From positions 1 to 64,000 of IMG/VR virus record IMGVR_UViG_3300009502_002976: DNA of 64,000 bases, one strand, 5' to 3'. Of this stretch, positions 1,933 through 26,290 are shown one piece after another. Numbering within the stretch: position 1 is the stretch's first letter; each line of letters starts with the position of its first letter. A program made the position numbers and the translations under genes. This stretch comes from a virus. The notes below the pieces were generated by a model. That model was not told the origin of the DNA, made no database searches, and saw only the letters and a program-made list of their open reading frames with translations.

Positions 1933-2430
1933 ATGAGCTTAGAAAACGACATCACAACCGTAAAGATGATGGTTGAGACTAATGATGCTTTTATGGATCA
2001 CCCAGATCCTAGTGGACTTGGGCATGCGGCAAATGATCCTAGAAACTGTAAGCTTGTTTGGTGGTATGACCCAAGGTCTGCTGAGTTTGTAAAATCGCGA
2101 GATCCTAAGCATCTTCATGTACTTGATGTTAGCCGTAACGTTATAAAAGACTATCAGCATTGGGTTCGGGGGCGTGTGTTTCAGTATCAAGGTAAAGGAT
2201 ATCTGGTTGTTTATTTTCCTGAGAAGAAGCACTTATTAAGTCATCAACTGGTAGATATTTTGGATAAGGCAATGAATAGCGTCGATATTCAAATAGATAA
2301 AGTCATTGATGATAATGGTCGTGATTTGCATGATATGCTCGAGTCTCTAAACGTTTATACGCTAGAGCACTCTTCTCTTGGAGCATGGAAGATAAATGCG
2401 AGTGGATCTGTCATAGAGGTAGCTGTTTAA
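1933..2430 (+). CDS. Leader-bearing hypothetical protein
   Basis: 165 residues. The N-terminus MSLENDITTVKMMVE matches the shared leader and ends in M-V-E at residue 15, but the VFKAA linker is missing. The rest is unrecognised: an N-terminal part rich in D, P, W and R, then a mixed alpha/beta stretch with GRVFQYQGKGYLVVYFP that looks like one small folded domain. The stop codon overlaps the next start (TAATG). It could be a single-module member of the internal-protein family. The function is unknown. Confidence 0.8.
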   Translation: MSLENDITTVKMMVETNDAFMDHPDPSGLGHAANDPRNCKLVWWYDPRSAEFVKSRDPKHLHVLDVSRNVIKDYQHWVRGRVFQYQGKGYLVVYFPEKKHLLSHQLVDILDKAMNSVDIQIDKVIDDNGRDLHDMLESLNVYTLEHSSLGAWKINASGSVIEVAV

Positions 2431-5246
2431 TGAGCCTAGAAAACGACATCACCAATCTGAAAAAGATAATGGACCAGCGGGGCCCTGGTGTCCGCTCGAC
2501 TCAGCGTGTCTTAGGTGAGAAGAAGCTAAACGAGCTCGCGTGCGTCAAGTGTGGCAAGCATAACGTAGACATCATGGGTAAGAAGTATAAGGACGAGGAG
2601 CTTTGTCCGGACTGTGCAGCTTTGAATAGGACGATGGCAGAGCCTAAGGTTGAGGAAGCTGAGCATGTCTTTAAGGCTGCGTCCCCCGAAGATGTAGACA
2701 GGCGTCGTGCTCCGCGTCAGCTTAAGATCAGAGCTCGTAGAGCCAAAGACACTGTGGAAGACAGAGTGCTTGGGATGGAGCCGGAAGACATTGATCCGCT
2801 ACTTTCTATGTGGTTTGACGAGTGGGGTATGGACGTAGAGGGCGAGAACGGGGAAGAAGTAGATGAGGAGAGCCCGGCCGCTAGGAACAAGTATGTATTC
2901 CTACCGTTCATCAGGGACGCCAAGACAGTGCTGAAGATAGACCTTACTCCTCTAGTGAAGAGGTACCTGTCTCTTGATGAGAAGGACAGGGCTGAAGTTA
3001 TGTTCTGTCAATCGGCAGCTGCCAGGATCGCTAAGGCTGGGTTCTACGTGTACGACAGCGACTCTCGCTTTGAGGTGTATGCACCAGAAGATATGGTGGA
3101 CGTTGACTACGACGAAGACGAGCTTGACGAAGCCCAAAAGCCAGTGTTCAAGGCCGCGGGCAGGCAGGAACTTAAACGTCGCGAGAAGCTCCAGGGCCCC
3201 ATGAAGACTATTAAGGCGCCTATTGTTAAGAATGAAGAAGGTGACTTCCCCGAAGAAGAGCTTGTTAGCATTGAGTGCCCGCACTGTGGGAGCCTGGAAG
3301 ATCATCCGGCTGAAGAGCGGAGATGGCTTACGCAGCACTTCGACTTTTTAAATGTTGAGCAGGGTCGCGACGGTCACGAGTACACGTATTACAGGTGTCA
3401 GGACTGCGGTAAAGACTTCAGGATTAAAGACATGTTTGAGTCTAAGATAAACGAAGCCGAACCCATATTTAAAGCCGCGAGTCAGGATCAGATTGCGAAG
3501 AGACTCCAGATAAGTCCAGAACGAACTAGAGTACTTCAGCAGTATGTTGCTGCAAGATTTCCTAATTCCGGTCCTTACTACCAAGGTGATTGGGCTGCAA
3601 GGTTTAAGGAGGGTATGGAGTGGCAGATGTCGGACAACGACGGGAGAGCTCTTCTTCAGAAGCTTGGTCCGAACATTTACCCTAAGGACATTGACGCGTT
3701 CTTTACAGTTAACGAAGCCGGGCAGGTGTTCAAAGCTGCCGGCCCGGAAGAGATTGCTAAGAGGCCGCATAAGACTTTTAAGGTTATTTACAAGGGGGAC
3801 CGGGAGAACCCTGATGACTACGACAACTTTACGTTAGACAAGACTTATGATGCCTTCGAATGCCATGAGGCGGATTTGAGCCTTGATCCTGTTTACAAAG
3901 GTGATGATCCAGATGCATTCATTAAGCTGAAGAACGACTTGGGCCAGATGGTCATTAACCCGAGCATTGACTTTGATTTTCCTGTGGAAGAGAACCGTCA
4001 CTGCAAAGCCTGTGATAAAGATGTGCTTTCGGAAAACTATCTTCCTGACTGGCGCACTGTAGGGGTTTGCAAGTCCTGTGCTGAGACGATTGAGGAAGCT
4101 GAGAAAGAGATACGTGAAGAGCGCCGCATATTCCAGGCGGCATCTCCGCAGGATGTCAAGGCAAGGTTGAATACTGAGCCATGTGGAGTGTGTGGCGTGA
4201 AGTTGATAATAGACAAGAGCACGATATGCTCCGACTGTGGGGCATATATTTGTGATGAGTGCACAGCATGGAAAGATAGTGACACTCCTATTTGTAATAT
4301 GCACGTTGGGGATGACATTGATGCAGCTCAGTACCGTATGGGTGAGGCAGTTAACGAGGCCGGTAATCCAGTGTTCAAGGCTGCCAGCAAGGACGATGTT
4401 GCCAAGCGACGCGGCCAGAAGCCACTTCCTGCGGGAACTCCCGACTACAAGTTCTTGGAGTTCATTGTGGATCCGGACCCGGCGCTAAGCACATGGAAGA
4501 TGACAGGTATTGGCGGGTACATTGATGAGGAGCATAGCGACATTTATTTTGGTAAGGATGGAGAGCCCGAGTTCTGCTTCAACATGAAGACTCAGGATAT
4601 GATCGATGACAAGCTCGAGAAGGATGACGAGCTCACTGAAGAGTGCTGTAAGTTCTTTGAAGATGAGGGGCATGGGAGCTTTGCTGACAAGAACGAAGCG
4701 TGGGTTGAGTCGAAGAAGTGGACTCCTAGGGGTACTGAGAACACAGCTAACTGGGACAGCACATACTACTGGGGTGAGATCCTTCAGTATACAAGGTTCG
4801 AGACTGATGACGGCCGGGATGGCGTAATCATAATGATGCATATGGGTGGAGACTACCGCGGAAACTACGCTTATCCGGTTGTGTACTTTGGGGACTTTGA
4901 TGAAGTTATAAGTGCGTCTAACCCGGGTGACCCGAGGGAAGAGCCGGCGTATCTCCTAGGGTATGATGGGGACATGGACAAGCTAGTGGAAGACATGAAG
5001 AACTTCAGGAACCCACAAGCAGAGGAAGATGAGGAAGGTATTGAGGGGGCGTACAGGCCGCAGAAGGACGTCAAGAACCGCGGGCAGATGAAGTGGACAT
5101 TTAACCCAGAGAATCCAGCAGAAACACAAGTTGAATCGAGGGTGCAGGAATGGAAGACGGATGGAAGTGTCACAAGCTCGGAAACACGGACCTCTATACC
5201 GACACCCAAGGGGTTGTCAGAGAAGTCCGAAGAGACGGGAAACTAG
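2430..5246 (+). CDS. Seven-module zinc-ribbon polyprotein with VFKAA linkers
   Basis: 938 residues. The start is placed at the ATG overlapping the previous stop (TAATG), because MSLENDITNLKKIM is the family leader. An ATG 45 bases upstream would bury that leader. Linkers begin at residues 80, 239, 346, 433, 567 and 648. Each is preceded by a protease-like triplet: V-E-E, L-D-E, I-N-E, V-N-E, I-R-E and V-N-E. At least four modules carry zinc-ribbon cysteine pairs (CVKCG/CPDC; CPHCG/CQDCG; CKACD/CKSC; CGVCG/CSDCG/CDEC). The final module (about 665-938) is acidic and unrecognised. The leader has I-M-D where relatives have [ILM]-x-E, but L-G-E and L-N-E follow within 35 residues. This is the clearest polyprotein-like gene in the window. 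Confidence 0.88.
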   Translation: MSLENDITNLKKIMDQRGPGVRSTQRVLGEKKLNELACVKCGKHNVDIMGKKYKDEELCPDCAALNRTMAEPKVEEAEHVFKAASPEDVDRRRAPRQLKIRARRAKDTVEDRVLGMEPEDIDPLLSMWFDEWGMDVEGENGEEVDEESPAARNKYVFLPFIRDAKTVLKIDLTPLVKRYLSLDEKDRAEVMFCQSAAARIAKAGFYVYDSDSRFEVYAPEDMVDVDYDEDELDEAQKPVFKAAGRQELKRREKLQGPMKTIKAPIVKNEEGDFPEEELVSIECPHCGSLEDHPAEERRWLTQHFDFLNVEQGRDGHEYTYYRCQDCGKDFRIKDMFESKINEAEPIFKAASQDQIAKRLQISPERTRVLQQYVAARFPNSGPYYQGDWAARFKEGMEWQMSDNDGRALLQKLGPNIYPKDIDAFFTVNEAGQVFKAAGPEEIAKRPHKTFKVIYKGDRENPDDYDNFTLDKTYDAFECHEADLSLDPVYKGDDPDAFIKLKNDLGQMVINPSIDFDFPVEENRHCKACDKDVLSENYLPDWRTVGVCKSCAETIEEAEKEIREERRIFQAASPQDVKARLNTEPCGVCGVKLIIDKSTICSDCGAYICDECTAWKDSDTPICNMHVGDDIDAAQYRMGEAVNEAGNPVFKAASKDDVAKRRGQKPLPAGTPDYKFLEFIVDPDPALSTWKMTGIGGYIDEEHSDIYFGKDGEPEFCFNMKTQDMIDDKLEKDDELTEECCKFFEDEGHGSFADKNEAWVESKKWTPRGTENTANWDSTYYWGEILQYTRFETDDGRDGVIIMMHMGGDYRGNYAYPVVYFGDFDEVISASNPGDPREEPAYLLGYDGDMDKLVEDMKNFRNPQAEEDEEGIEGAYRPQKDVKNRGQMKWTFNPENPAETQVESRVQEWKTDGSVTSSETRTSIPTPKGLSEKSEETGN

Positions 5247-5782: not shown

Positions 5783-6163
5783 ATGAGTTTTGAGAAGGAC
5801 ATATCCGCTATCAAGAAGCTTATGGAATCCGAGCCTGTGTTTAAGGCCGCCGGGCCTGAGGATCTCAATAAGCGTAAGGCAGCCGAGGATAGAGCTCGTG
5901 AGGCTCGGGAAGCTGCACGTAAGGCTGAAGGTATAGTAGATTTTTGTCCACACTGCAAGGCTGACTTACGGGACCAGAATATCGGAGCGTACGCTACCGG
6001 AAAAGAGTACTTCACGGAAGGGCTTTTTTGGGACAGTGAGCTTGAGAGCTGGAACTACGGTGAAAGAGATACTAACGACTCTTCTGTTGACGGCTACCTC
6101 TGCGGAAAATGTAACAAGGTATTGCACATAGGAACTGACTTTGATCCTGAGAGAACACTATGA
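5783..6163 (+). CDS. Single-module leader/VFKAA protein with zinc ribbon
   Basis: 126 residues in canonical arrangement. The leader MSFEKDISAIKKLME ends with L-M-E at residue 15, then comes PVFKAAGPEDLNKR, a short Ala/Arg/Glu helix, and a zinc ribbon with FCPHCKADL and LCGKCNKVL. It is the simplest view of the family layout: leader, cleavage-like triplet, linker, cargo. It overlaps the next gene by 4 bases. The inferred role is a small internal-head protein; the cargo function is unknown. Confidence 0.85.
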   Translation: MSFEKDISAIKKLMESEPVFKAAGPEDLNKRKAAEDRAREAREAARKAEGIVDFCPHCKADLRDQNIGAYATGKEYFTEGLFWDSELESWNYGERDTNDSSVDGYLCGKCNKVLHIGTDFDPERTL

Positions 6164-6492
6164 GCTTAGAGCAAGATGTCGCATACATTCAGAGAATGAT
6201 GAAGCTCTATGAAGCTGAGCCTGTGTTTAAGGCCGCCGGACGAGAGGATGTAAATCAGAGAAGGAACGCTGCTGCAAGAGCACGTCAAGCTGAGCTTGCT
6301 GACAAGCTGGCAGATCCAGTGTGGTCTTTCTGCTATGACCATTACTATGCAGATCCAGACAGCGACGGTGTGCGTGAGAAGCGGTTGCCTTTCGATAGCT
6401 GGGACGATGATGACATCGAGGACCAAGTTGACACCGACGCTGAGGCTCTTAGACGGTTTATGGCGGGAACATATAGGAAGGCTGCACAATGA
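6160..6492 (+). CDS. Single-module leader/VFKAA protein
   Basis: 110 residues. The leader MSLEQDVAYIQRMMKLYE is three residues longer than usual and ends in L-Y-E before AEPVFKAAGREDVNQR. The cargo is acidic (DDDDIEDQVDTD) with an aromatic stretch WSFCYDHYYADP and is not recognised. It overlaps both neighbours by 4 bases, so it is probably translated with them. Confidence 0.82.
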   Translation: MSLEQDVAYIQRMMKLYEAEPVFKAAGREDVNQRRNAAARARQAELADKLADPVWSFCYDHYYADPDSDGVREKRLPFDSWDDDDIEDQVDTDAEALRRFMAGTYRKAAQ

Positions 6493-7100
6493 GCTTCGAA
6501 AAAGATATCACAGAAATCAAGAAGATGGTTGAGGCGGAAGAGCCGGTGTTCAAGGCTGCTAGCCCTGAGCAGGTTGCCAAGAGGGTGGATGATATAGTGG
6601 CACAGCAGGCGCAGCAGCTGTACGCAAAGGCCGAGGAGGCTCGGCCTGGTATAATCGCGGAGCTTAGAGCAAAGCTTGGTAATAGTGAGGCACTCGTTCA
6701 GACGGCGATCGCTTACGCGGACACACAGCACATTGATACACTTCTTGGTATTGAGCCGGAAGAGATTCGAATGGCTGATCTTACGTCGTGGAATGACAGT
6801 CTTGGCGCCAAGATCCGGGATCTTGATTGGCCTGGAGTATGGACGGATAAAAACACGTTCTTGAAGCAGGCTGAGATGGTTGGTGGATACAACGTATTTG
6901 ATGAAGATATCGCTAAGGGTCTCGTTCAGGATTTTGGAGACAGGCAGTATCGATTGGCCCGTGAAGGCTCTGTAGCAGTTTACATCAGGCCAGTTAAGAA
7001 AGTAGAGATGGGGTTGTTGAAAGGTTCAGAAGGACCCAATGCATTCGGGGAAGATGAGCACGATTTAGATGGAAATGAATTAAGACTTTGGTGGGACTAG
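6489..7100 (+). CDS. Leader/VFKAA protein, paralogous to the C-terminus of the giant protein at 17743-21453
   Basis: 203 residues. The textbook leader MSFEKDITEIKKMVE is followed by AEEPVFKAASPEQVAKR. The cargo (about 60-165) has segments TAIAYADTQ, GVWTDKNTFLKQAEMVGGY and DFGDRQYRLARE. These align with TALAYADSM, GIWSDAETLKKQAKIVGDY and RFGNTAKYKLARD at the C-terminus of the 1236-residue protein. The same domain therefore occurs once as a single-module gene and once inside a long chain, which supports module shuffling. Function unknown. Confidence 0.85.
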   Translation: MSFEKDITEIKKMVEAEEPVFKAASPEQVAKRVDDIVAQQAQQLYAKAEEARPGIIAELRAKLGNSEALVQTAIAYADTQHIDTLLGIEPEEIRMADLTSWNDSLGAKIRDLDWPGVWTDKNTFLKQAEMVGGYNVFDEDIAKGLVQDFGDRQYRLAREGSVAVYIRPVKKVEMGLLKGSEGPNAFGEDEHDLDGNELRLWWD

Positions 7101-7817: not shown

Positions 7818-8684
7818 ATGGCAAGAGGCAAGGTTAAGTGGTCCGAATAGAGCCACGTACTTCGCTATATGCTGGAATAACTTCAAAAGATAGGAGTCCT
7901 AATATGGAAAAATCTTCTATACACGGAGTCAATCAGCAGGCAAAGGCAGTAGACTTGGCTTGGTTAGCGGGTCTGGTAGATGGGGAAGGTACTATAGGCT
8001 TGTATAAGTATATGTGTGGGAAGAGCTTAGTATGTAAGCCCAGATTCCAGATTTGCACAACCAGTCCAAGATTGGTTAAACGTGTATTAGAAATCTTAGA
8101 ACCGCTTGGTTTTAAGTTATACGTCAACCAGGCCGAACAACGGCCACAGTGGAAAGAGCGTTATACAATCGTAGCTTGTAAGCACGAAACGTGCGAACAA
8201 ATTATACTAATGCTCTATGACTATCTTGTGGAAAAGAAACCACAAGCAGATTTGTTGCTTGGATATCTTAGGTCAAGACATGGTAAGCTTGGCAATGGAA
8301 AAGGGTATTCAGAAAAAGAATTAGCAACAGTCGAAGCTCTAAAAGAAACTAACTTTAGAGGTGTCAATTTTCCACGACTGCCAGAGTCCTCAGAGACTAC
8401 ACGCGAAGAGCTGTTATGAGCAGCCAAGATATAGTCCGATCTGCATAGCGATATGCAGCTAACAAAATGTCAGCGGTCCCAAGGGTTACGGATTCATCAC
8501 GGGTAACGACGGTAAAGATGTTTTTTGCCACTTTAGCAGCATTTTGCAAGATAAGGGATACAAGACACTTGACGAAGGTCAAGAGGTTGAGTTTGACATC
8601 GTTGCTGGAGAGAAGGGGGACCAGTCCGCGAACGTTCGTAAGATTGTTCCGCTTAATGAAGTAAAAGCTGTGGATAGTAAGTAA
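7818..8684 (+). CDS. Cold-shock domain protein, split by a group I intron (exons 7818-7842 and 8470-8684)
   Basis: Joining exon 1 (25 nt) to exon 2 (215 nt) gives a 79-residue protein reading [20 protein letters not shown] and continuing [13 protein letters not shown]. This is the classic cold-shock domain with both RNP motifs (KGYGFI and VFCHF). AAAAGGAG precedes the ATG. The splice points were chosen because they restore the cold-shock frame and also satisfy group I rules: U ends exon 1 and G ends the intron. Cold-shock proteins bind single-stranded nucleic acid. A phage copy could assist translation or mRNA stability. Unspliced, the product would end after [10 protein letters not shown]. 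Confidence 0.9.
7843..8469 (+). ncRNA. Group I self-splicing intron carrying a LAGLIDADG endonuclease gene
   Basis: 627 nt. The exon end GUGGU pairs with GCCAC at 7851-7855, forming P1 with the required U-G wobble at the 5' splice site. Near the 3' end the P7 strand GACTA (8395-8399) pairs with TAGTC (8432-8436) inside the conserved AAGATATAGTCC. P8 is GCTG/CAGC (8410-8413 with 8421-8424), and P9 is a 7-bp hairpin with a GCGA tetraloop (8441-8458). The last intron base is G. The 3' end of the nuclease gene overlaps the P7/P8 core. P3-P6 were not traced base by base. Confidence 0.9.
7904..8419 (+). CDS. LAGLIDADG homing endonuclease (intron-encoded)
   Basis: 171 residues from the ATG at 7904, which has AGGAG seven bases upstream. 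The hallmark helix is [16 protein letters not shown] near residue 20, a single LAGLIDADG motif followed by a DNA-binding saddle-like alpha/beta region. One motif at this length suggests a homodimer. The enzyme would cut an intronless cold-shock allele and promote intron homing. Reading through from the upstream GTG would start inside exon 1 and is unlikely. Confidence 0.88.
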   Translation: MEKSSIHGVNQQAKAVDLAWLAGLVDGEGTIGLYKYMCGKSLVCKPRFQICTTSPRLVKRVLEILEPLGFKLYVNQAEQRPQWKERYTIVACKHETCEQIILMLYDYLVEKKPQADLLLGYLRSRHGKLGNGKGYSEKELATVEALKETNFRGVNFPRLPESSETTREELL

Positions 8685-8768: not shown

Positions 8769-9323
8769 ATGAATACAAAAGTTTGTACTGTTTGCGGCAC
8801 TGAAAAGAAAACGTCTTATTTTTACCCAAAGAAAACTGGAAAGTTTAAAGTGTCGGCAGCATGCAAGGAATGTGATCTGTTAGCGCACAAAAAGTATTAC
8901 AAGGATAACCGTGACATGGTGCTGAGCAAGGTCAGGGAGCGCAGCAGAGGCAGCAAAAAGGAAAAGGCAGTTTACGACCGTAATTACAATGTCGTAAATA
9001 ACACAAGGCTTTTGCGACAGAAGGAAAACACAAGGCTTAAAAGAAGTTACAAAATAACGCTTGAGCAATATTTTGACATGTTATTTAAGCAAAGCTTTCG
9101 ATGCCTTGGGTGTGGTAAGCACCAGTCTGATATTGAGTGGGCGCTATGCATAGACCATGATCATAAGTGCTGTTCCGGTGAAAGATCATGTGGTAAGTGC
9201 ATACGAGGACTGTTATGCATTCATTGTAACCACGCAATAGGAAGTGCGTACGATGACGTTGGAACGCTAAAAAACTTGGTTTTATATCTAGAGTCGTTCG
9301 AACAACAAGGTAAACCAGCTTAG
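8769..9323 (+). CDS. Recombination endonuclease VII-like nuclease
   Basis: 184 residues, start supported by AGGAGG eight bases upstream. An N-terminal zinc finger (CTVCGTEKKTSYF, CKECD) leads to a helical region and the endonuclease VII signature: CLGCGKHQ, LCIDHDHKCC and CIRGLLCIHCNHAIG (about 110-160). These are the zinc-binding cysteines and the catalytic DHDH/N region of this His-Me finger family. T4 endonuclease VII resolves branched DNA. In such contexts these genes are often free-standing homing nucleases, which is likely here beside two other homing nucleases. Confidence 0.85.
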   Translation: MNTKVCTVCGTEKKTSYFYPKKTGKFKVSAACKECDLLAHKKYYKDNRDMVLSKVRERSRGSKKEKAVYDRNYNVVNNTRLLRQKENTRLKRSYKITLEQYFDMLFKQSFRCLGCGKHQSDIEWALCIDHDHKCCSGERSCGKCIRGLLCIHCNHAIGSAYDDVGTLKNLVLYLESFEQQGKPA

Positions 9324-9761: not shown

Positions 9762-10124
9762 ATGGAAGAAAAGTTAAAGACTTTCGGAGAATTACTAAAA
9801 GAGACGCTCGGTGAGCGCACGGCGGAATTGCCGGCTGTGGCAGAGGAATCGTCAGCTACACTTACTGACTCGGAGCGAGGCGCGATTCTCGAGAAACTTT
9901 CGAAAACGAAGCGCGAAACTACCGCCCAACCCCCTTCGGCGGCAGACAGTCACGGGGAAGACCTTTCGACTGCCTCCTTCGGGTCCTTACTTGAACAAAC
10001 TGTAAAGCTTCAGGAGGAGATGAGGAACGAGGATCACTCGAAAGATGACGAGATTCGGGAGAAGGTCATTAAGAGCTCGAAGATGGAGCTGGCTGAAGAG
10101 ATGATCAAGAGGTTTATGAGATAA
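9762..10124 (+). CDS. Charged helical protein with leader-like N-terminus
   Basis: 120 residues. The N-terminus MEEKLKTFGELLKETLGE is an amphipathic helix ending in L-G-E at residue 18, similar in form to the leaders nearby but with different sequence. The middle is low-complexity (Ser, Thr, Glu) and the C-terminus is a charged helix. The stop overlaps the next leader gene's start. It could be a small scaffold-like or internal protein. Confidence 0.65.
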   Translation: MEEKLKTFGELLKETLGERTAELPAVAEESSATLTDSERGAILEKLSKTKRETTAQPPSAADSHGEDLSTASFGSLLEQTVKLQEEMRNEDHSKDDEIREKVIKSSKMELAEEMIKRFMR

Positions 10125-10384
10125 TGAGCTTTGAGACGGATATCACTCAGATCAAGAAGATGGTCGAGGCTGATGAGAAGCCAGTGTTCAGGGCTGCTAG
10201 TCAGGAAGAGATCGCCAACCGTCCGGATCCTACTAAAGAGATCAAGACAAAGCTCACGATTTACATGCCTTTGTACAAGGCTGACGGAACGAAGACGACA
10301 AAGGATGAAGCGTACAACACGATCATGGAGCTTGTGATCAACGCTGGTCTAGAGTGTCAGATCTATGAGCAGGAGATCGAATGA
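10124..10384 (+). CDS. Single-module leader/VFRAA protein
   Basis: 86 residues. The leader MSFETDITQIKKMVE (M-V-E at 15) is followed by KPVFRAASQEEIANR. The roughly 50-residue cargo (TKLTIYMPLYKADGTKTTKD, then an ELVINAGLECQIYEQ strand) looks like a compact alpha/beta fold. It overlaps the next gene by 4 bases. Function unknown. Confidence 0.8.
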   Translation: MSFETDITQIKKMVEADEKPVFRAASQEEIANRPDPTKEIKTKLTIYMPLYKADGTKTTKDEAYNTIMELVINAGLECQIYEQEIE

Positions 10385-11166
10385 GCTTAGAACGTGATAT
10401 CACGGCCATCAAGACTCTTCTAGAGGCCACACCTGTTTTCAAAGCAGCTGGCCCGGAAGATATGGATAGGCGTGCTGGCGTGACTAGAGCCGCCGAAGAT
10501 AAAGCTCGCCAAGAGCGCATTGCCATAGCTGGCCCACAGCTTAGAAAACTCATGGAGCTAGCAAGACTAGCAAGAGCCGCGGATGACGAATACATCAGAG
10601 CTAGCGAGAACGATTTTATAGGGAACTACGGTAAGCAGAACGACGAGCAACATCCGATCAAGGTGTCCTTCAGCATAAAGGTTTACAACTGGCGCATGCC
10701 GGAAGGCGTTGAGGACAAGCTCCGCGATGCCGGGTATCTCGATTCAGCATACGAGACAACGAACGAGGACATGGCAGGTGCACTGACAGACTTTGTTGAA
10801 GATCTCCAAGCTAAGTATAAGTTCATAAATGGCTGGAGCCAGGAAGGACGGTCAGGGGGGTGGCTAGTTCTCGACATAGATGATGTTGACAACTCCTACG
10901 ATGCGTCAAGGTTGACCGGGGACTTTGAGAGCATGGAGTACGCGTTAGATGAGACAGAGGGGTGGTTGCCGCAGGATTTTAAGTACGCCGAGCAGACTTT
11001 TATAGACTACAGGAAGGCGCTAGCTACAAGGCTTCACTGCTTGACTGCTATTGAAGCATCAATTGAAAAAGGGAAGAGAGATTTAGAGAAGTGGTTCTCA
11101 TCAACGGACTACTGGGATTCATACTTTGAAAGAAACGAGATAGCAGACAAAAGGAGTGAGGTCTAA
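10381..11166 (+). CDS. Single-module leader/VFKAA protein
   Basis: 261 residues. The leader MSLERDITAIKTLLE (L-L-E at 15) is followed by PVFKAAGPEDMDRR. The cargo is long for a single module: a helical part (about 40-75), a middle part with KVSFSIKVYNWRMPEGVEDK and GGWLVLDIDDVDNSYD, and a C-terminal charged helix with WFSSTDYWDSYFER. No family recognised. Confidence 0.82.
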   Translation: MSLERDITAIKTLLEATPVFKAAGPEDMDRRAGVTRAAEDKARQERIAIAGPQLRKLMELARLARAADDEYIRASENDFIGNYGKQNDEQHPIKVSFSIKVYNWRMPEGVEDKLRDAGYLDSAYETTNEDMAGALTDFVEDLQAKYKFINGWSQEGRSGGWLVLDIDDVDNSYDASRLTGDFESMEYALDETEGWLPQDFKYAEQTFIDYRKALATRLHCLTAIEASIEKGKRDLEKWFSSTDYWDSYFERNEIADKRSEV

Positions 11167-11167
11167 C

Positions 11168-11395
11168 ATGAGTTTTGAGAATGATATTACGCACATCAAG
11201 AAGATGATCGAGAAGCTTCAGGCTGAGACTGAAACGATGCCTACAGAAGCCCCGGTAATTACCCCGGAAGCTCCTACGCAGCGCCCGGATAAGCCAAGCA
11301 CTCCTATTCGCAAGATGCCGGGGATTTCCCCAAAGCCGAAGGCTCTTAATAGGGATACGGAATTATTTTTAGCTAAGCGAGGTATAACTAGGTAA
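11168..11395 (+). CDS. Short leader-only protein with proline-rich tail
   Basis: 75 residues from the ATG at 11168, one base after the upstream stop. Leader MSFENDITHIKKMIE (M-I-E at 15), then a Pro/Thr-rich tail without a recognisable domain. It may have lost its cargo. The GIY-YIG nuclease gene starts at its stop codon (TAATG), so the nuclease may have displaced the original 3' part. Confidence 0.7.
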   Translation: MSFENDITHIKKMIEKLQAETETMPTEAPVITPEAPTQRPDKPSTPIRKMPGISPKPKALNRDTELFLAKRGITR

Positions 11396-12108
11396 TGAGT
11401 TACGGTTATGTTTACAAGACCACCAACTTACTTAACGACAGAGTGTATATAGGACAGAAGAAAGGTCAATTTGACTCTAACTACTTCGGTAGTGGGTTAA
11501 TTATTAGGAGTGCTTTGAGTAAGGAAGGGTCTAGTAACTTTAGCTTAGAAGTGTTGGCTTATGGGATGACACGTGACCAGCTCAACGAGCTTGAGATGAA
11601 GTTTATAGCTGACTACAGGGAGATGTTAGGTCGGGACACACTATATAACATAACTGATGGCGGTGTTGGCGTACGCCGACCGTGTCCTGATTTGGTTAGG
11701 CAGAAAATACGAGCTAAGGTACATGCACCAGACTGCACCTGTATGAGTTGCAAGAACACAAGAAAAGAAAAGCATGGAGCTGACTGTTGTTGTGTTGGGT
11801 GTAGGAGTAGCCGCGGAGACAGTTTGAATCACAGAGAAGATTGTAAATGTATTGCGTGTGCACCTATTTACACTAAGAGAGAAGTAAGGACCTGCGTTTG
11901 TGGTTGCGGGGGAACGTTTGAGTGCAAGGTATCCTCTAGCAAGAGGTACATTTTTAACCACCACAAGAGGGGCAGCACTTCTTGGAACAAGGGTAGAACA
12001 GGTCTTCAGACATGCTGGAATAAGGGGCTGACCAAATATACGGATGGCAGAGTTCTCAAAATGTCTAATAGTCTGACCGGGAAGAAGTATAAAAAGAGGG
12101 ACTTATAA
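11395..12108 (+). CDS. GIY-YIG homing endonuclease with cysteine-rich repeats
   Basis: 237 residues. N-terminal GIY-YIG domain: GYVYKTTNLLNDRVYIGQKK, the catalytic-region segment SALSKEGSSNFSLEVL, and ELEMKFI with the metal-binding Glu. Three short repeats of the form H-x-x-D-C-x-C-x-x-C follow (about residues 115-160). Then comes CVCGCGGTFECKVSSSKRYI, also present in the nuclease at 40671-41492, and a NUMOD3-like end (WNKGRTGLQTCWNKGLTK). It starts on the stop codon of a leader gene, a typical placement for a free-standing mobile nuclease. Confidence 0.88.
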   Translation: MSYGYVYKTTNLLNDRVYIGQKKGQFDSNYFGSGLIIRSALSKEGSSNFSLEVLAYGMTRDQLNELEMKFIADYREMLGRDTLYNITDGGVGVRRPCPDLVRQKIRAKVHAPDCTCMSCKNTRKEKHGADCCCVGCRSSRGDSLNHREDCKCIACAPIYTKREVRTCVCGCGGTFECKVSSSKRYIFNHHKRGSTSWNKGRTGLQTCWNKGLTKYTDGRVLKMSNSLTGKKYKKRDL

Positions 12109-12109: not shown

Positions 12110-13285
12110 ATGAGCCTAGAGCAGGACATTACAGAGGTAAGGAAGAAAGTCACAGAAGCAACGCCAGGTAAGAACTACGACATCAGTGTGGTCCCGCAGG
12201 ACAAGCAGCAGTGGATCTCAGCAGGTGATGATGTCATCAACCAGATCCTTCCTGGCCTTCCTCCGGAGCAGCAGGAATACTTGATCAAGATCAACAGCGA
12301 TAGCTACACAGAGCTTGTTGACAGAGTCGAGGCCCTTACGGGCATTACAGTCACTCCCCGTAATGTTCCAAGACTTATTGGTCTTGTAATGCAGTCGATC
12401 GCCGAAGTTAAGAGTATCGAGAGTAAGAACAAGAATCGCTTAGAAGAGATGGCTATAGAGCTTGTGTTCAGCGTTCCTGAGTTCAAGGTGGTTGAGCAGG
12501 CATACCTAAATGACGAGATCTCGATTGACGCGAAGCTTGGTCCCGCGGAGCTAAGTAAGCTTACACAGCAGGAGCAGCCCGAAGACCAGGAAGAGATGCA
12601 GGATGGTCTTACAACAGACGAAGAGGCTAACCTTGAAGTAGCTCAGTACCTGGAGAAGGCTACAGATGAGGACATTAAGCGCAGGTTCGCTAACCTGATG
12701 ACTTCAGGCGGCGCAGTAGGGAAGCTTTATCTATACAACTTGGCAGCCGATAAGCTTGCCAGGTTCAACCCGAAACTGCCGGCTCTGTATGGTATCCTAT
12801 CCTCGATTGTCCACCTAGGCTACTGGATAGCTCCTACAGGTATAGAGAAGATGGCCGCTCAGAGAGAAGACACAAGCATGGGCTCTGAGGAAGTGGTTTC
12901 TGATGGAGACAAGTACGTCATCAAGGCTCGTGCGGTCACATTCCCGTATCTAGTTCACGAGCTTGTTAAGGGCATTTACGAGTACCTCGCCTTAGATCCT
13001 AACCAGCAGAATGCTATGAAGAAAGATAACGTCGAAGCTGAGACGCGTGACTTCATGGCAGGCCCCGGAATCCACAAGACCGTTTTATCCTACATACCGG
13101 ATGACAAGCAGGAGTTGATCCCTATGGTTCAAAGTAAGCTAACAGCCATGGCTCCTGCGGATATCAAGGATGTGCTCGCTAAGAACTTTAACGGCAAGAA
13201 GATCATGGCGGACCTCATGAAGCAGGCTGAAGAAGAGTGGTCTGGTTATAAACAGAAGAAAGATAACTACAAGGAGTCCTTCTAG
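12110..13285 (+). CDS. Leader-bearing protein of unknown function, 391 aa
   Basis: The leader-like start MSLEQDITEVRKKVTE ends in V-T-E at residue 16, with no VFKAA linker. The rest is one long mostly helical protein with an acidic linker (about 155-180) and a globular C-terminal half containing FANLMTSGGAVGKLYLYNLA and LVHELVKGIYEYLAL. It looks like a full-size structural or internal protein rather than a short module. The next gene starts with GTG overlapping its TAG. Confidence 0.78.
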   Translation: MSLEQDITEVRKKVTEATPGKNYDISVVPQDKQQWISAGDDVINQILPGLPPEQQEYLIKINSDSYTELVDRVEALTGITVTPRNVPRLIGLVMQSIAEVKSIESKNKNRLEEMAIELVFSVPEFKVVEQAYLNDEISIDAKLGPAELSKLTQQEQPEDQEEMQDGLTTDEEANLEVAQYLEKATDEDIKRRFANLMTSGGAVGKLYLYNLAADKLARFNPKLPALYGILSSIVHLGYWIAPTGIEKMAAQREDTSMGSEEVVSDGDKYVIKARAVTFPYLVHELVKGIYEYLALDPNQQNAMKKDNVEAETRDFMAGPGIHKTVLSYIPDDKQELIPMVQSKLTAMAPADIKDVLAKNFNGKKIMADLMKQAEEEWSGYKQKKDNYKESF

Positions 13286-13665: not shown

Positions 13666-13840
13666 TGGAACTGACATTTCTAACTGCATACGTTGCGGAA
13701 GTGACAAGCTTGAGAAGGTTGTGTGGCAGTCACCGTACGTTGTTGGATCCAGGGATACCAATAAAGTTTTGAGGAAGTGGGGACTCAACTGCATCAGGGA
13801 CTACACCTGTAACAATTGCGGGGTTACGTGGAGGGACTAG
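13658..13840 (+). CDS. Small zinc-ribbon protein
   Basis: 60 residues with CIRCGSDKLEKVVWQ and YTCNNCGVTWRD, two cysteine pairs forming a complete zinc ribbon. Its start is inside the end of the preceding gene. Such mini-ribbons often bind nucleic acid or protein. The specific role is unknown. Confidence 0.7.
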   Translation: MASGTDISNCIRCGSDKLEKVVWQSPYVVGSRDTNKVLRKWGLNCIRDYTCNNCGVTWRD

Positions 13841-13842
13841 CG

Positions 13843-14676
13843 ATGGGAATAATTTCATTTTTAAAGGGGCTTCTTCCGAAGAAGGTTGTCATCCGGAAGT
13901 ACGGGTACATTCGCGATCGTAAGGACTCACGTGACAAGATGTATAAAGATTTTATGGCGGATGAGGTTGGAATAACTGCAAATCTACCACAAACTGTTGA
14001 TCTCACAAGTAAGCTTCCTCCTTGCTACGACCAGGGACAGCTTGGCTCTTGCACGGCCAACGGTATTGCTGCTGCTATCGAGTTTATTCAGCCAGGGTTT
14101 ATGCCAAGCCGATTGTTCATTTACTATAACGAACGGGCTATGGAAGGCACTGTCTCACAGGACTCAGGTGCTCAGATCCGTGATGGCATTAAGGCTGTCG
14201 TAAGTGACGGAGTTTGTCCTGAGAGCATGTGGAAGTACAACCCGTCTATCTTCTGGGTCAAGCCATGGCCTTGCTGCTACGCGAAGGCGAAGAAAGATAA
14301 GGTCAATGCCTACCTACGCGTTACTGGTACTCAGGAACTTCAGAGCTGCTTGGCTGCTGGGTTCCCCGTAGTTATTGGTATTCAGGTGTATGAAAGCTTG
14401 GAGTCGCCGGCAGTTGCCAGGACAGGTATTGTTCCTATGCCGGGGGCCAACGAGCAGTGTGTCGGCGGGCATTGCGTCCTTGTTGTCGGGTATGACATTG
14501 GGAAACAAATGTTTCTTGTAAGAAACAGTTGGGGAACTGACTGGGGCATCAATGGGAACTTTTGGATACCGTTTGCATATCTGGCGGATCCCAAGCTTTG
14601 CTCGGATAACTGGACTATCCGCGGTGCTAACGTGCTTAAGCTAATTAAGAAATCAGCCGGTAAGAAGAAGTCATAA
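13843..14676 (+). CDS. Papain-like (C1A) cysteine peptidase
   Basis: 277 residues from the ATG at 13843. The catalytic signatures are all present: YDQGQLGSCTANG with Gln64 (oxyanion hole) and Cys70, GGHCVLVVGYD with His210, and VRNSWGTDWGINGNFW with Asn228. The N-terminal 45 residues are basic and may act as a short pro-region. There is no capsid-targeting leader. A C1 peptidase among virion genes is uncommon. It could mature structural proteins, act on host proteins, or be an alternative processor of the linker proteins, although the [ILV]-x-E junctions fit the gp21-type protease better. Confidence 0.88.
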   Translation: MGIISFLKGLLPKKVVIRKYGYIRDRKDSRDKMYKDFMADEVGITANLPQTVDLTSKLPPCYDQGQLGSCTANGIAAAIEFIQPGFMPSRLFIYYNERAMEGTVSQDSGAQIRDGIKAVVSDGVCPESMWKYNPSIFWVKPWPCCYAKAKKDKVNAYLRVTGTQELQSCLAAGFPVVIGIQVYESLESPAVARTGIVPMPGANEQCVGGHCVLVVGYDIGKQMFLVRNSWGTDWGINGNFWIPFAYLADPKLCSDNWTIRGANVLKLIKKSAGKKKS

Positions 14677-14689: not shown

Positions 14690-15850
14690 GTGAGTTTTGA
14701 GAATGATATTACAGAGATTTATAAGCTTGCTAAAGCGGGTGAGCCACTCCTAGAGGGGTTTGCTGAAGCCAGAAGGCGCTACGTTGAAACTCTTGATCCT
14801 GCGACACAACAACCGCTGATGCCTCTTGCAATGCTTAAGCGACTTGCTGCTAAGGATCCTACATACCCGGCTAAGGGAAAGTACGTTGAGTGGATCGCTA
14901 AACAGTACATGAACAGCCACAGTATGCGTGGGCTAGACGCGGTAAAGGAGTTCGACAAAATCCTTACCACTAAGCCGACGTACCTCGAGAAGAAGGACAT
15001 CAACCAGTACACCACGGTTGATGATCTCCATAACGCAGTTGACGCAGTACGGGCCAGGGTTTCCGCGGAACGTGAGCAGAAGAAGGATAGGATTGTCCGC
15101 GGACTTCTTGCGAAAGCCGGAGGGTCTGAGGACAAGGCTTTCAAGTGGGCTGCCGGGCAGGGTGCAGTTCGTAACGCCGCACACGATGCCGGTGAGCAGA
15201 TATCTGATGAAGAGGCAGCTAGAAGGGCCGCAGAGCTAGGAAGAGGCAGCCTTGTGAACGAGTATGGCATTACTCTTGAGTACGTTAAGAAGATCAAGAA
15301 AAAGATGCAGGCAGAAGGAGCAGGAGCTGCCTGGAGAGACTTTTCGATCGACACCGACATCTTTAACGAGATAGCGCGTGAGCCATATTCCATTGAGACT
15401 AAAGATTCTGATGGTAAAGTTACTACCGTACCCCTTCCGGCCGATCTCGTATTCGAGAACGACAAGGTAGCAATCGTATGTCCTCCTAACGAGGAGAAGA
15501 GCAGGCTGTATGGACGCGATCCTGACTATGATCCGAACGATCCACATCAGACCGGTTCTCCGTGGTGTACTTCATACGCCACTCGCAGCACCCAGTGGGG
15601 TACCTACTACGGGCGCCAGGGAGATACGTTCTATATCATTATGCCTAAGAGCATTGATATCGTTCCTGAAAAGAGGTTTAAGAAGATCAATGTTCAGGTA
15701 AAGGCAAAGCGTCATGGTGAGACTGATGACTCCCCCGTGCGTTTGACTGCATGGGACTGCAACGATACTCCTATCCCGAGACCTGAGTCCAGGAAGATAT
15801 TCAAGGCTTGGGGTATACCGCCACAGAAAACTGTGGATGACAACGATTAG
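14690..15850 (+). CDS. Leader-bearing protein with phage WCT-motif domain
   Basis: 386 residues from a GTG with GGAGGGTG upstream. The N-terminus MSFENDITEIYKLAK is the family leader but diverges after it (GEPLLE, a possible cut at residue 22). A long helical middle precedes a C-terminal domain (about 270-360) with GSPWCTSYATRSTQWGTYYG and GDTFYIIMPKS. That pattern recurs in phage hypothetical proteins. No catalytic assignment can be made. It probably belongs to the internal-protein set as a single large cargo. Confidence 0.78.
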   Translation: MSFENDITEIYKLAKAGEPLLEGFAEARRRYVETLDPATQQPLMPLAMLKRLAAKDPTYPAKGKYVEWIAKQYMNSHSMRGLDAVKEFDKILTTKPTYLEKKDINQYTTVDDLHNAVDAVRARVSAEREQKKDRIVRGLLAKAGGSEDKAFKWAAGQGAVRNAAHDAGEQISDEEAARRAAELGRGSLVNEYGITLEYVKKIKKKMQAEGAGAAWRDFSIDTDIFNEIAREPYSIETKDSDGKVTTVPLPADLVFENDKVAIVCPPNEEKSRLYGRDPDYDPNDPHQTGSPWCTSYATRSTQWGTYYGRQGDTFYIIMPKSIDIVPEKRFKKINVQVKAKRHGETDDSPVRLTAWDCNDTPIPRPESRKIFKAWGIPPQKTVDDND

Positions 15851-15851
15851 C

Positions 15852-16127
15852 ATGAGCTTGGAAAAAGACATATCCCAAATTAAGAAGCTTGTTGAAGACG
15901 ACAGTGTCTTTAAGGCTGCCGGTCCTGACGAAGTGTCCAAAAGACCAAAGCACTACGTTGACGCTCTTAAAGAGACTGTAGACACTCTTATTGGTAGGCT
16001 GAACTGGCTTAAGCACGACTTGGACAGGGGAGTCATTACGTTAGATGTTGATGTGCAGTCTGCTGCTAAGAAGGTTCATCTATATTTGAAATCTGCAGAA
16101 CATGAGCTCGATGAGAGTGGATTATGA
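15852..16127 (+). CDS. Single-module leader/VFKAA protein
   Basis: 91 residues from the ATG one base after the preceding stop. The leader MSLEKDISQIKKLVE (L-V-E at 15) is followed by SVFKAAGPDEVSKR. The cargo is about 55 residues of amphipathic helix (YVDALKETVDTLIGRLNWLK and a similar second helix), likely a helical hairpin. It overlaps the next leader gene by 4 bases. Confidence 0.82.
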   Translation: MSLEKDISQIKKLVEDDSVFKAAGPDEVSKRPKHYVDALKETVDTLIGRLNWLKHDLDRGVITLDVDVQSAAKKVHLYLKSAEHELDESGL

Positions 16128-17722
16128 GCCTGGAAAAAGACATCACATCACTCAAGAAGATCATGGAAGCTGACAACGTCTTCAAGGCTGCTGGGCCGGA
16201 TGAGCTTAAGAAGCGCGGGTGGCATAGGGATGTAGATTCTATGCTGAAGGTCAACACTATTCAGAACAGAGACTACAGCATCTCTGGGCCACATTGGATT
16301 GGACGTTCAGAGAACCACCATGACTCCTATGCTCGCAAGACAGAAGGGGCTCAGTGGGCTGTTTATATTATGCAGAGAGACCATGATTTTGATACTACTA
16401 TGAAGAACTTGGATCGTAGGCTCGCGGCCTGTGTGCGTAAGTATTTTAAGACAGAGGCTGAAGCCACTCAGTATATGAGCACAGACGCGTTTGAGAGAGA
16501 CCTACCTACGCTTGTTGAAGCCGAGCAGGTGTTTAAGGCAGCAGGACCAGATGAGCTGGCACAGCGCAGGGTTGAGTATCCGGAGACAACTCATTTTCAC
16601 GGTGGCAGAGTGTATGGCCCGGGGTCTAACCGTGGGTTTATAAGTAACTGGATTAATGGGGTACGTAATACAGCGCGTCCAAGAAACATGCGCAGTGAGG
16701 GAGATGTTCTCTACTCTTATGGAACTCCGATCGCCATTAAGAAGGAAGGGCTTATTTACTCTGTGGACAGGAGGTTTTCTGTAACGACGTCTAAGCAACA
16801 ATACTATGTCAGAACACAGGCCGGAGATAGGCTCAGGCTTGTGCCGCAGGATGAGTTTAAGGCTCTGGCACGCGAGGCTGGAGCGAACTACATGGGGTGG
16901 CTCGGAGAGTCTGTAAGCGAGGCTAAGCCAATATTCAGAGCAGCTGGGCCGGAAGACATCGCCAAGCGTAAGGAAGACAGGATCAAGGCTATTGGGGCTC
17001 ATGCTGATGCTAATAGTGGTGAGTGGTTTGAGATAGCAAGGGCCGAGCTCTCGAGGGAGCTTGCGGTAGCTATTGAGCTTGTTGATGACGGTGGTCTTTA
17101 CGGGCCGGCTACTATGCAGGCAGTGGATGGCGAGGGGAGCAACGGGGAGAGGGAGTGGGCCGTCTACAGGGATTCTGATAACGCTGAGCAGGCGGCTATC
17201 GCCAGAGTAACTGAGGACATGAATGATGATCCGCCCATGTTTACAGAGAGTTTCATTCAGCAATACATTTCTATTCGTCCAACGGATAGGCGGATGATCG
17301 CTCAGGAGGAGTCTGATAATTATGTGGATGAAGTGCTGCGGGACGCGGACGTTTTAGAAGAAGCTGGGGTGACTGACGAATACGAGGAGCTCCAGGCAAA
17401 GATAGACAGTACGCGCTCTGAGGCTAGGAAAATAGCGTTAGAGAAGACACAGGAAGACATGCTTGAGTCCGCTAAAGAGACAGTTCGCGAGAAGAAGTAT
17501 GACGAGATCCATGCCGCTCTTGAGGACCCGATTCAGTATTTTGTTCATGACCATGGTATTTATAGCATTCAAGACCTTATGAAAGCTAGCTTTATATACA
17601 TTGATACCGATGAAGCTGCCAAAGATGCAGTGGACACGGATGGAGTAGCGCACTTTCTTGACAACTACGATGGTAGCGAAGTCGATCTTCCGAGTGGCGC
17701 AGTAGCGTTTGGTACTAACTAA
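16124..17722 (+). CDS. Three-module VFKAA polyprotein
   Basis: 532 residues. The leader MSLEKDITSLKKIME (I-M-E at 15) is followed by linkers at about 19, 136 and 270. The last two are preceded by L-V-E and V-S-E and end in GPDELAQRR and GPEDIAKRK. Module 1 (about 35-130) has YSISGPHWIGRSENHH. Module 2 (about 150-265) is basic and beta-rich. Module 3 (about 285-532) is acidic and mostly helical. None is recognised. It is an intermediate between the single-module genes and the seven-module gene. Confidence 0.85.
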   Translation: MSLEKDITSLKKIMEADNVFKAAGPDELKKRGWHRDVDSMLKVNTIQNRDYSISGPHWIGRSENHHDSYARKTEGAQWAVYIMQRDHDFDTTMKNLDRRLAACVRKYFKTEAEATQYMSTDAFERDLPTLVEAEQVFKAAGPDELAQRRVEYPETTHFHGGRVYGPGSNRGFISNWINGVRNTARPRNMRSEGDVLYSYGTPIAIKKEGLIYSVDRRFSVTTSKQQYYVRTQAGDRLRLVPQDEFKALAREAGANYMGWLGESVSEAKPIFRAAGPEDIAKRKEDRIKAIGAHADANSGEWFEIARAELSRELAVAIELVDDGGLYGPATMQAVDGEGSNGEREWAVYRDSDNAEQAAIARVTEDMNDDPPMFTESFIQQYISIRPTDRRMIAQEESDNYVDEVLRDADVLEEAGVTDEYEELQAKIDSTRSEARKIALEKTQEDMLESAKETVREKKYDEIHAALEDPIQYFVHDHGIYSIQDLMKASFIYIDTDEAAKDAVDTDGVAHFLDNYDGSEVDLPSGAVAFGTN

Positions 17723-17742: not shown

Positions 17743-20700
17743 ATGAGTGCTGATAAAACAATTTTTGAAAAAATGTTTAACCACGTTAATCCAAACGTAG
17801 GATCTACTGCTGAAAACGTTGCTAAGAAAGAGGAGGCTGCTAAGACTCTTGGTCAGAGCATTCAGGAGAACGTGAAGATGGACGCTGCTATGAGGCCGGA
17901 AGTTGTTAAGGAGTCAGAGGAAGTTGAGATGCTTAACAACATGCACCGTAAGGACTTCGGGGATGTTGAGGATATTGAGTCGGAATCTGAAGACAGCGCT
18001 TCTCCGGACTTTCGCTTGCTACTTAAAGGGGTGCAGAAGGATGTGTCCACTAAGTACGCGGATACTTGTGGGATCTGCCCTGACGTAGACGGTGACATTA
18101 TTCCTATTGGAAGCGAGACTGCAAAGTCTTCTGCCAGGCACGATGAGGTTGAGCAGCACATGAAGGATCTCGCCAAGGAAGTTGGACAGAACACCGTTCA
18201 GCAGCAGGTAACTGCCCACCAAACTGAGGCCGATGAGCTCCCAAAACAGGAGCCCGAGGTTCATACTGCTATAATGTCGGAAGAGCCCAAGGAAGAGATT
18301 GTTTGTGAAGAGCCAGCGGGCGAGATATCGACGGAAGATGAAGTAGAAGGTGAAGAAGTGTTTAAGGTGAATGTTCCCGCGAAGCTGTCGAAGGTTGCTG
18401 AAGAACGTGACCCGTGGCTTCCGCATGTTGCTGGGCAGTGCATGGTTTGCAAGAAGCCCGCTACTATCAAGGATGCTAAGGGTGGAGAGTATTGCTCACC
18501 GGAGTGCCAGAAGTCCCCGGCGCCTAAGTCTAAGATGAGGACGTTCTCGTACCCCACTGAGTTAGGCGTTGTTGGGCGCCCGGCAGCTTTAGAATCCAAG
18601 AAGCTTAAAGAGACGTCTGGTGAGGCTGACCATTATCAGGTTATTGGGATAAGCAAGCCTAAGGACATCAAAGAGACCACCGTTGATATATGCTGGAAGT
18701 ATGCCGGAAAATCCGGTGTTGTTGGAGGACAGTTTGAGTCAGTTGAGGACTTCCTACGCAAGAGCAGCGACAGGAGTCTCGAGTGGTACCAGGTTGACGG
18801 GCAGGACAAGGTTTCAATGATTGAAGCCAAGATCAAGCCGCTTAGCGAAGCTGGTAAGAAGGTATTTAAAGCTGCATCGCCTGATGATATTTCTAAGCGT
18901 CCTAACTCTGCAAAATACTCCGAGTGTGACATCTGCAAGCAGCCAATGAACCCACATAACGAAGGCTGCTGGTCCCATATGATCGATTCCAAGGGTGAGT
19001 GGGTTGAGCGTATTCCTTATGGCGGCGAAGGTGAAGATACGTCGATGCCTTGCGGCGACTGCAACGTTAAGTCGTTTGGTTATCACCATGACGGCTGCGA
19101 CAGCGAGCACTGCCCGCGTTGCGGCGGCCAGATGCTTGGCTGTGAGTGCGACTGGACGAGCATTGGTAAGCGCAAAGCTAAGTCTCCTAGGGCTGTTGAG
19201 TCTAAGAAGCACGAGTTTGGTGATTCAACTGTATCTGACTTCCGCGGCATCTTTGAAGGAGCCAAGAAGATTAAAGAAGCTTCCACTCTTGAGCCGGGCG
19301 ACGACGACCTAAGTCCGACTGAGGAAGACTGGAAGAGCGAGGAGACGTTCCCCATCCTTAGGCCAACTACCCCGGAGCGCAAGCCGACTGACGAAGGCGC
19401 TTTCGAGGACTATCTGTGGAAGATGGATGTGAAGGAGCTTCGCGAGCTTCTATCAAGCGACCGTACCAAGGGTGATGCTGACAGGCTTAGCCGCAGAGAG
19501 CTTCAGATCGTCAATACTGTTATCAGGCGCAAGGAGCTTGGCGAGCGGAAGGTAAGCGAAGCTGGTGAAAATAATCCAGGATATTGGACGAGGACCAAAA
19601 AAGGAAAGCGCAAATGGAACTCAACTAAGGCGTACACGCAGACTCCAGGAACTAAGCCCTGCAAGAGCTGCGGCAAAGACATGGCCGAGGAAGGCGCGGA
19701 TGAGTGTAACGACTGCTTTCTAGATCACAACAGTCCAGTAGAAGAAGCTAAGAAAGTCAATGAAGACGGCATGGCGCCTGGCGGCGGAAGCGGAACTGTA
19801 GCCGCTATGGCAAGTGCAATTCCTCCTACTAAGGTTGACAGAAACAAGATGCCAGATTCAGTCCCGGCGCAGAACCCGGAGACACATGACAATACAGAGA
19901 AGCAGCCTGAGGCTAATGAACAAGGTGACAAAGAGTACTTTGGCAAGCAGGGAGATGATAACTACTACTATCTCCTGTCAGTGCCAGCCGAGGATGAGGG
20001 ATCACAGGGCGGTATTTCGAGTGAGGAAAAGCCGGACGTGACTCCTAATGTTGCCCAGGCCGAGGAAGCTCCTGCTGAAGAGAAGACTCCTGAGTCGATG
20101 GTTGCAGGGTTTAAGGAATCTGTTGATCCAGCAAATGACTTTCACTTTATCAAGGAACAGCTTTCTGAGCTCTTGAAGAGCTGGGAGAGCATTGCTTCAC
20201 GTCAGGATTCTATGGGTAATGTTAAGGGTCGTCTCGAAGCACTCGTTAACGCGATGAACGAAGCTAAGATAAACGAAGAAGACACGCTTGCTGGAACCCA
20301 GAACTTTGCGAGCCTTCAGATCATCGATGCAAGCGGAAAGGTAGTTAAGGATGACAAGAGTGCCGAGAAGAGCACCGACAACATTAAGAACTTCCTCTTG
20401 CAGGCGATGGATGAGCTTGAGCTTACTGAGTTAGCTCCGGACATCGTTAAGAAATACTTGCTCGCGGATGAAGTAAGCACTGAGGATGACGAGATGACTA
20501 AGACCCCGTCAGAAGATGAGACAAATAAGGTTCAGGGCGAACCGCCGACGAAGACCGAGAAGCCTAAGCCAGGTCAGAACATGGCGAGTGAGTCCATAGA
20601 TAAGTTGATGGAGAAGTTTAATTTGAGTGAAAAGAAAGAGGACACGGATATGAATGAGTTTAACATCAATATTATGCTAGATAAGTTTGGGCTAGGCGAG

Positions 20701-26268: not shown

Positions 26269-26290
26269 ATTCAACTAAAGGACAGTGATG

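Follow-up and report, generated by a model that had tools for sequence, protein, structure and literature searches.

Glu Sites of the Prohead-Protease Type at the Junctions of a Predicted Virion-Cargo Polyprotein in an Uncultured gp23-Type Phage

Introduction

Whether a tailed phage can load several small proteins into its head as one chain, to be cut apart in place, is the question raised by the gene at 2430–5246 (+) of the window analyzed here, bases 1–64,000 of the 66,762-base uncultured virus record IMGVR_UViG_3300009502_002976. Its product, P0001, has 938 amino acids (aa) in seven segments, and each of the six linkers between them stands behind a Glu site resembling those of the T4 prohead protease gp21. 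At a probability of roughly 0.78, we read the gene as encoding a precursor of virion cargo, with one leader for import of the whole chain and a gp21 homologue that separates its modules. In T4, internal proteins are packaged via an N-terminal targeting sequence of 10–19 residues that is removed by gp21 after Glu (PMC9026906), and in Alt the cuts lie at ITE-6 and LTE-619 (PMC5694885). The ejection proteins of giant phages are cut at AxE, and a single propeptide can be cut several times (PMC10052503). Internal proteins led by a capsid targeting sequence (CTS), gp21, and polyvalent proteins with their polyprotein analogy (PMC5512222) are thus already known. Our literature search, outside which many subscription papers lay, found no cargo polyprotein of a tailed phage in which every junction has a head-protease site, only the polyvalent-protein analogy.

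Segments and Junctions of the 2430–5246 Gene

The reading frame is open and overlaps the preceding stop codon by one base; a longer alternative start lies at 2385, and the leader MSLENDITNLKK favors 2430. Behind the leader MSLENDITNLKKIMDQ, linkers occur at aa 80, 239, 346, 433, 567, and 648. The original prediction counted six VFKAA linkers, which is correct in number and too uniform in wording, as only four read VFKAA, the others being one IFKAA and one IFQAA. The triplets ahead of them, with Glu 3–4 residues before the linker, are in order VEE, LDE, INE, VNE, IRE, and VNE, exactly those first reported. The predicted cuts (shown by a slash) would follow Glu76 (VEE/A, 2655–2657), Glu234 (LDE/A, 3129–3131), Glu342 (INE/A, 3453–3455), Glu429 (VNE/A, 3714–3716), Glu563 (IRE/E, 4116–4118), and Glu643 (VNE/A, 4356–4358), all on the + strand, and would yield products of aa 1–76, 77–234, 235–342, 343–429, 430–563, 564–643, and 644–938. 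Zinc-ribbon-like cysteine clusters are found in several of the seven segments.

The same site is present throughout the window. Five multi-module genes, starting at 1, 2430, 16124, 17743, and 29951, contain 14 internal linkers, all of which (14/14) have [ILV]xE within 8 aa upstream, where 1.14 would be expected from the other positions of the same proteins. The residue after the predicted cut (P1′) is Ala at 12 linkers, Ser at one, and Glu at one. The earlier statement that every internal linker of these genes follows [ILV]xE, usually with Ala next, was therefore borne out, and so was its proposed control, the motif being well above background. When four linkers of the relative L009 (IFKGAS/IFVGAS) and five of a sister phage, G013, were added, [ILVM]xE was present at 21 of the 23 linkers vs. 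1.96 expected, with a nominal P of 3e-21 that overstates independence because the linkers are paralogous. Control patterns at the 23 linkers were near background, with [ILVM]xD at 0/23, [AST]xE at 2/23, and [ILVM]xK at 2/23. Residues within the junction pattern vary while the pattern itself persists.

The VFKAA motif is kept at the protein level, since third codon positions have diverged with the amino acids retained: position 3 differs in 62% of pairwise comparisons, near saturation, vs. 6% at positions 1 and 2. This divergence rules out a recent DNA repeat as the origin of VFKAA.

One Leader per Gene

Proteins of the module cluster, which is located upstream of the protease and capsid genes, have a common leader, MS[LF]ExDITxIKKMxEA (in the form MSLEKDITSLKKIMEA), mostly followed by VFKAA[SG]PEDVxKR (tag stretch VFKAASPEDVAKR). 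It heads 13 window genes whose proteins are otherwise unrelated (alignment A1), and mostly ends in an [LI]xE site; genes 1933, 2430, and 11156 have leaders without one. The targeting-like leader occurs once per gene, at the N-terminus only, and internal junctions repeat just the Glu site and the [VI]FK tag. The idea of repeated targeting/cleavage modules, part of the original prediction, thus survives in its cleavage half, a cleavage-type site being present at each window junction, and fails in its targeting half. A full targeting sequence at every junction was rejected by reading the junctions; the stretch MTADLKSIFEADH, which resembles a leader and lies within the open frame S_76851 of G013, may be an exception.

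Because a cut after Glu would leave VFKAA on the product, the tag is not part of the removed piece and not obviously part of targeting. Its counterpart differs by phage, being IFKGAS in L009 and IFKPMG or IFKPMK in L101, with the Glu site persisting in both. VFKAA was not found in further relatives, where the Glu site is kept.

Two further observations concern leaders. Repeated LLEKYxLxEA/LMEKFxLxE stretches ahead of the C-terminal module, both in 17743–21453 and in L009:5116–7314, resemble strings of internal leader-type sequences. At 26285–27049, between the gene for the capsid protein and the head gene that follows, a homing-endonuclease-like protein has the same targeting-like leader (MSFEMDVTVVKELMEKN) and lacks both VFKAA and a clear site.

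Modules Fused and Split Among Relatives

Relatives were sought from both the precursor and the capsid protein. Searches with P0001 against isolate phages (tblastn) and with peptide patterns in IMG/VR gave no match, and a capsid alignment against 84,980 genomes, run to find the host, found no relative; 19 contigs were reached via the capsid protein. The head regions of relatives encode chains of 2186 aa (L011), 1412 aa (L019), and 921 aa (L014) with ES-x-[ILVM]-x-E sites between unlike modules, and L014 has 10 sites of this type vs. 0.6 in shuffled sequence. Their modules include a histidine phosphatase (His_Phos, 8.5e-16), a WGR domain, and DUF5661. The arrangement is therefore not unique to the present phage, since relatives' polyproteins reach such lengths with other linkers.

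The interchange of fused and split modules, with the Glu site kept at the same place, is the strongest line of evidence, as read from sequence comparison. A separate gene of G004 (91 aa) encodes segment 4 of the 2430 protein on its own, behind MRQLFEILLE. Segment 7 is homologous to a module of the L009 polyprotein, and one L009 chain holds both segment 7 and a module of 16124–17722. Within the same genome, the C-terminal module of 17743–21453 also stands alone as gene 6489–7100. The genes at 11156 and 12110 are two here and a single gene in L102, L103, and G005, where the joints are VNE, ITE, and LGE, respectively; among the fused members of the 12110 family, VNE occurs at the joint twice. The family of gene 14690 has LLE/G here, LHE/G right after the leader in G013, IQE/G in a standalone gene of G008, IEE/G in a G005 fusion, and [LV]xE/[GS] in L093, L094, and L099; the site position is the same in standalone and fused members. 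Similarly, the three modules of gene 31120 are separate genes or occur in other combinations in G003, G011, G004, G005, G006, and G008.

A search with the nucleotidyltransferase, one of these three modules, returned 38 loci, with the same head/tail genes at 38/38. [ILVM]xE lies directly before its conserved S-x-[IV]-[DNS]-[FYW] start in 29 of 37 distinct sequences, against a background of 1.8% per position. The module starts at most 45 residues from the N-terminus in 30/37, most behind short leaders (MKRLLE/S, MKELLEKLVRRFSIKE/S), and all seven fused copies, whose module starts further in, have [ILVM]xE (7/7). Minimal two-module precursors are found in L057 (449 aa; MRRLLEKILKISE/A ... YESVDE/SSIDFP) and L081 (MRDLLNNLLKLDE/A ... 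RESVDE/SSIDFP), with leader sites ISE/A or LDE/A and the junction ESVDE/S.

The sister contig G013 (L117–L121), 83.6 kb in length, contains 14 VFKAA linkers; of these, two lie in isolated genes, at 23.7 and 56.7 kb. None of the tested head or tail genes matched it, and the contig may be a complementary portion of a larger genome of similar kind.

Prohead Protease and Capsid Genes

The product of the gene directly upstream of the capsid gene, at 22581–24695 (+), combines a prohead protease domain of the gp21 type (His76, Ser140) with a scaffold-like C-terminal part. It matches phrog_207, head maturation protease, at 1.8e-15. T4 gp21 (5JBL) was its best solved relative when an 11-phage alignment of the protease domain (A4) was searched against PDB with hmmsearch (E 5e-9), and Foldseek with the predicted protease structure also pointed to 5jbl (E 1e-6, probability 1.0). 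The naming of this gene as a protease, made at first from the letters alone, thus agrees with both sequence and fold. The His of an EHP motif (H76) and the Ser of an STRA motif (S140) are invariant in the 11 protease sequences and are assigned as catalytic by analogy. Pfam PF03420 (Peptidase_S77) is above cut-off in the relatives L012 and L013; in a Peptidase_S77 search of its own genome the window protease fell below cut-off, but the search controls were without a match too.

The gp23-type major capsid protein is encoded at 24717–26192 (+; Pfam Gp23 PF07068, E 2.2e-30) and carries LLE63/[SG], a conserved site whose position is propeptide-like (alignment A2). This site, together with those of T4 Alt, favors a gp21-type cutter.

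Several relatives have protease-scaffold genes with extra modules (L013:5359–9996, L014:3544–6609, L024:6469–9975; proteins of 1021–1545 aa) and flanking ES-x-[LV]-x-E sites. The extra modules stand between protease and coiled coil in several relatives, with DUF7249 in L013, and given such flanks the protease itself may belong to a cargo polyprotein. The isolates SP-15 and LIS04 also have a protease-scaffold fusion, but no comparable modules were seen in the protein read.

Proposed Mechanism and Points Against It

A short N-terminal leader, a functional analogue of the T4 CTS, would import the complete chain into the core of the prohead. As the head matures, the gp21-type protease that the phage itself encodes would cut after Glu at exposed [ILVM]-x-E junctions, releasing seven small proteins from the 2430 chain. 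In the VFKAA lineage every product but the first would keep a 12–15 residue N-terminal tag (VFKAASPEDVxKR). Multi-module genes may arise by joining and shuffling of modules that elsewhere are separate leader-bearing genes. Ejection of the products along with the DNA, to serve as early effectors, is probable by analogy with T4 IPI and Alt. The sites, the leaders, the modularity, the fused/split interchange, and the protease family are established by sequence; packaging, cutting, and ejection, like the functions of the tag and of most modules, we infer. As for the original notion of one precursor that supplies several head proteins and is then cut, its Glu sites, gp21 homologue, and exchangeable modules are in place, and its cutting and packaging keep that conditional standing.

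Several findings weigh against a cargo precursor cut at every junction. The 938-aa protein has 18 [ILV]xE motifs, six of them at junctions; as the motif also lies inside modules, it is insufficient for cutting, and accessibility or exposure must decide. Two of the five G013 linkers (TNE, VNK) do not fit. The residue before the cut (P1) of the nucleotidyltransferase is Asp in 5/37 sequences and Cys in one. The leader of the 2430 gene reads IMDQ vs. xMEA (IMEA) in single-module genes, with Asp for Glu; in T4 IPIII, Asp at P1 blocks processing and still allows targeting (PMC9026906), and the first product may therefore keep its leader. VFKAA is lineage-specific. Finally, the C-terminal part of 17743–21453 could be core or scaffold instead of cargo.

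Alternative Explanations

Two other accounts of the long chains are both unlikely, and about equally so. The first is an uncut multidomain virion protein of the polyvalent type, whose junctions would be flexible spacers. Phage polyvalent proteins with 2–15 domains are common, some (N4 vRNAP) are packaged unprocessed (PMC5512222), and the free variation of module order fits as well. A plain spacer, however, needs neither Glu at P1 nor a hydrophobic residue at P3, and [ILVM]xD, [AST]xE, and [ILVM]xK are not enriched; moreover, the same site ends the leaders of standalone homologues. The second is a core- or scaffold-like chain, cut like T4 gp22, gp67, and gp68, with pieces that leave the head. 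T4 core proteins are indeed cut by gp21 into several fragments that are mostly removed (PMC9026906), and in relatives the protease gene forms a fusion with a scaffold-like coiled coil that holds inserted modules. The modules themselves, however, include enzyme-like folded domains (the His_Phos and WGR domains, NTP_transf_2, DUF5662), are non-repetitive and non-coiled-coil, turn over fast from phage to phage, and are found as single genes with a leader as well.

It is quite improbable that another phage peptidase, such as the papain-like one at 13816–14676, or a host protease does the cutting: a papain-like peptidase gene does lie within the module cluster, but the site fits gp21-family specificity (after Glu, with a short motif, as in Alt; PMC5694885) and the capsid protein, at residue 63, shares it as LLE/[SG]. 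Least probable of all, by a little, are functionless scars of repeat-mediated gene fusion, for although the VFKAA elements are all clearly related and located at fusion points, their third codon positions have diverged with the amino acids kept, and the site pattern persists where VFKAA is IFKGA, IFKPM, or absent.

Comparison With Known Systems

The cargo-precursor reading places the 2430 gene closest to T4 IPI, IPII, IPIII, and Alt, which are also unrelated proteins with a common short leader ending in a gp21-type site and belong to the same head programme, homologues of gp21 and gp23 being present here. In T4 each precursor yields a single mature protein (with C-terminal trimming as well in Alt), whereas two to seven or more are predicted here; with two to seven segments per gene, the system was not classed as an ordinary T4-type internal protein. 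The likeness between the T4 CTS and the present leader is a functional analogy only, the leader being too short for a homology test.

Polyvalent proteins are likewise multi-domain, rapidly shuffled, head-linked chains, which Iyer et al. (2017, PMC5512222) themselves liken to RNA-virus polyproteins, and DUF5661 is shared by the polyprotein of a relative and a chain of 2039 aa in the virus Rctr197k. The latter chain, which looks polyvalent by eye, was rejected as an example of the present system. Several distinct domains per chain and linkage to phage structural genes are found in the window chains too. Polyvalent proteins are released by embedded peptidase domains, whereas the window junctions carry sites for a separate head protease, and neither a peptidase nor a named polyvalent domain was detected in the window chains. 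In Vibrio phage VPs20 (L049:4338–5606) a DUF5661 module lies within a DUF2213 (head protease-type) protein, a combination of module and head protease that is unrelated to the present system.

Ejection proteins of phiKZ and SPN3US resemble the present case in Glu-specific maturation of head-packaged proteins by the prohead protease gp245, with several cuts per propeptide; there the cuts remove propeptides, and several mature products from one chain are not reported (PMC10052503). T4 gp22, gp67, and gp68 are similar in that gp21 cuts one chain into several pieces, but these are scaffold peptides, mostly expelled, and not separate folded modules.

A broader proposal, that a gp23-type phage clade makes true cargo polyproteins with interchangeable effector modules, head-protease sites, one leader, in-situ release, and a leftover lineage-specific tag as a possible second address (capsid, DNA, or ejection), seems to us likely, though less so than the reading of the 2430 gene. 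Tailed phages would then load many early proteins in fixed proportion, as RNA viruses do, with the capsid-maturation protease as the cutter, and for a whole clade of phages the proteins delivered by the virion could be read from sequence. The junctions would mark cargo-protein borders in otherwise unannotatable genes. Such a scheme would further offer a natural design, with one leader and many products, for the loading of phage heads with proteins.

Other Leader and Module Genes of the Window

The other predicted precursors, all on the + strand, have two to five segments or, in one case, a longer chain. The gene at 1–1932 encodes a five-segment precursor of 643 aa with junctions VNE/A, ILE/S, VRE/A, and LKE/A. 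A three-segment precursor of 532 aa (16124–17722) has junctions LVE/A and VSE/A, and its segment 2 also occurs in the L009 polyprotein. The long precursor of 1236 aa at 17743–21453 has the junction LSE/A before VFKAAS and further ES-x-x-E and LLEKYxLNEA-like sites. In the two-segment precursor of 197 aa (29951–30544) the leader site is VVE/A and the junction VDE/A. The precursor at 31120–32934 consists of three modules without VFKAA, namely a small module, DUF5662, and the nucleotidyltransferase, with sites LAE/S (aa 17), VDE/K (aa 112), and VSE/S (aa 293). An AlphaFold model of this protein (pLDDT 54) was too low in confidence to show domains or an exposed junction and was not used.

Single-module genes with a CTS-like leader and VFKAA lie, also on the + strand, at 5783–6163, 6160–6492, 6489–7100 (MVE/A; the homologue of the 17743–21453 C-terminal module), 10381–11166 (LLE/A), and 15837–16127 (LVE/D), and one with VFRAA at 10124–10384 (MVE/A). 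CTS-like leader proteins are further encoded on this strand at 11156–11395, which G005, L102, and L103 have joined to the next family; at 12110–13285 (MSLEQDITEVRKKVTEA), its partner, split off here; and at 14690–15850 (LLE/G).

Within the module cluster, ORFs (open reading frames) 7838–8419, 8769–9323, and 11395–12108 are by eye homing or HNH/GIY-YIG endonuclease-like, and could help to shuffle modules. The papain-like peptidase at 13816–14676 (phrog_16701) may be a second processing enzyme. A short beta-rich segment is common to the gene that follows the capsid gene (27046–27963), two places of a 1820-aa protein (57498–62960), and the capsid proteins of L009 and L010, and looks like a mobile surface domain.

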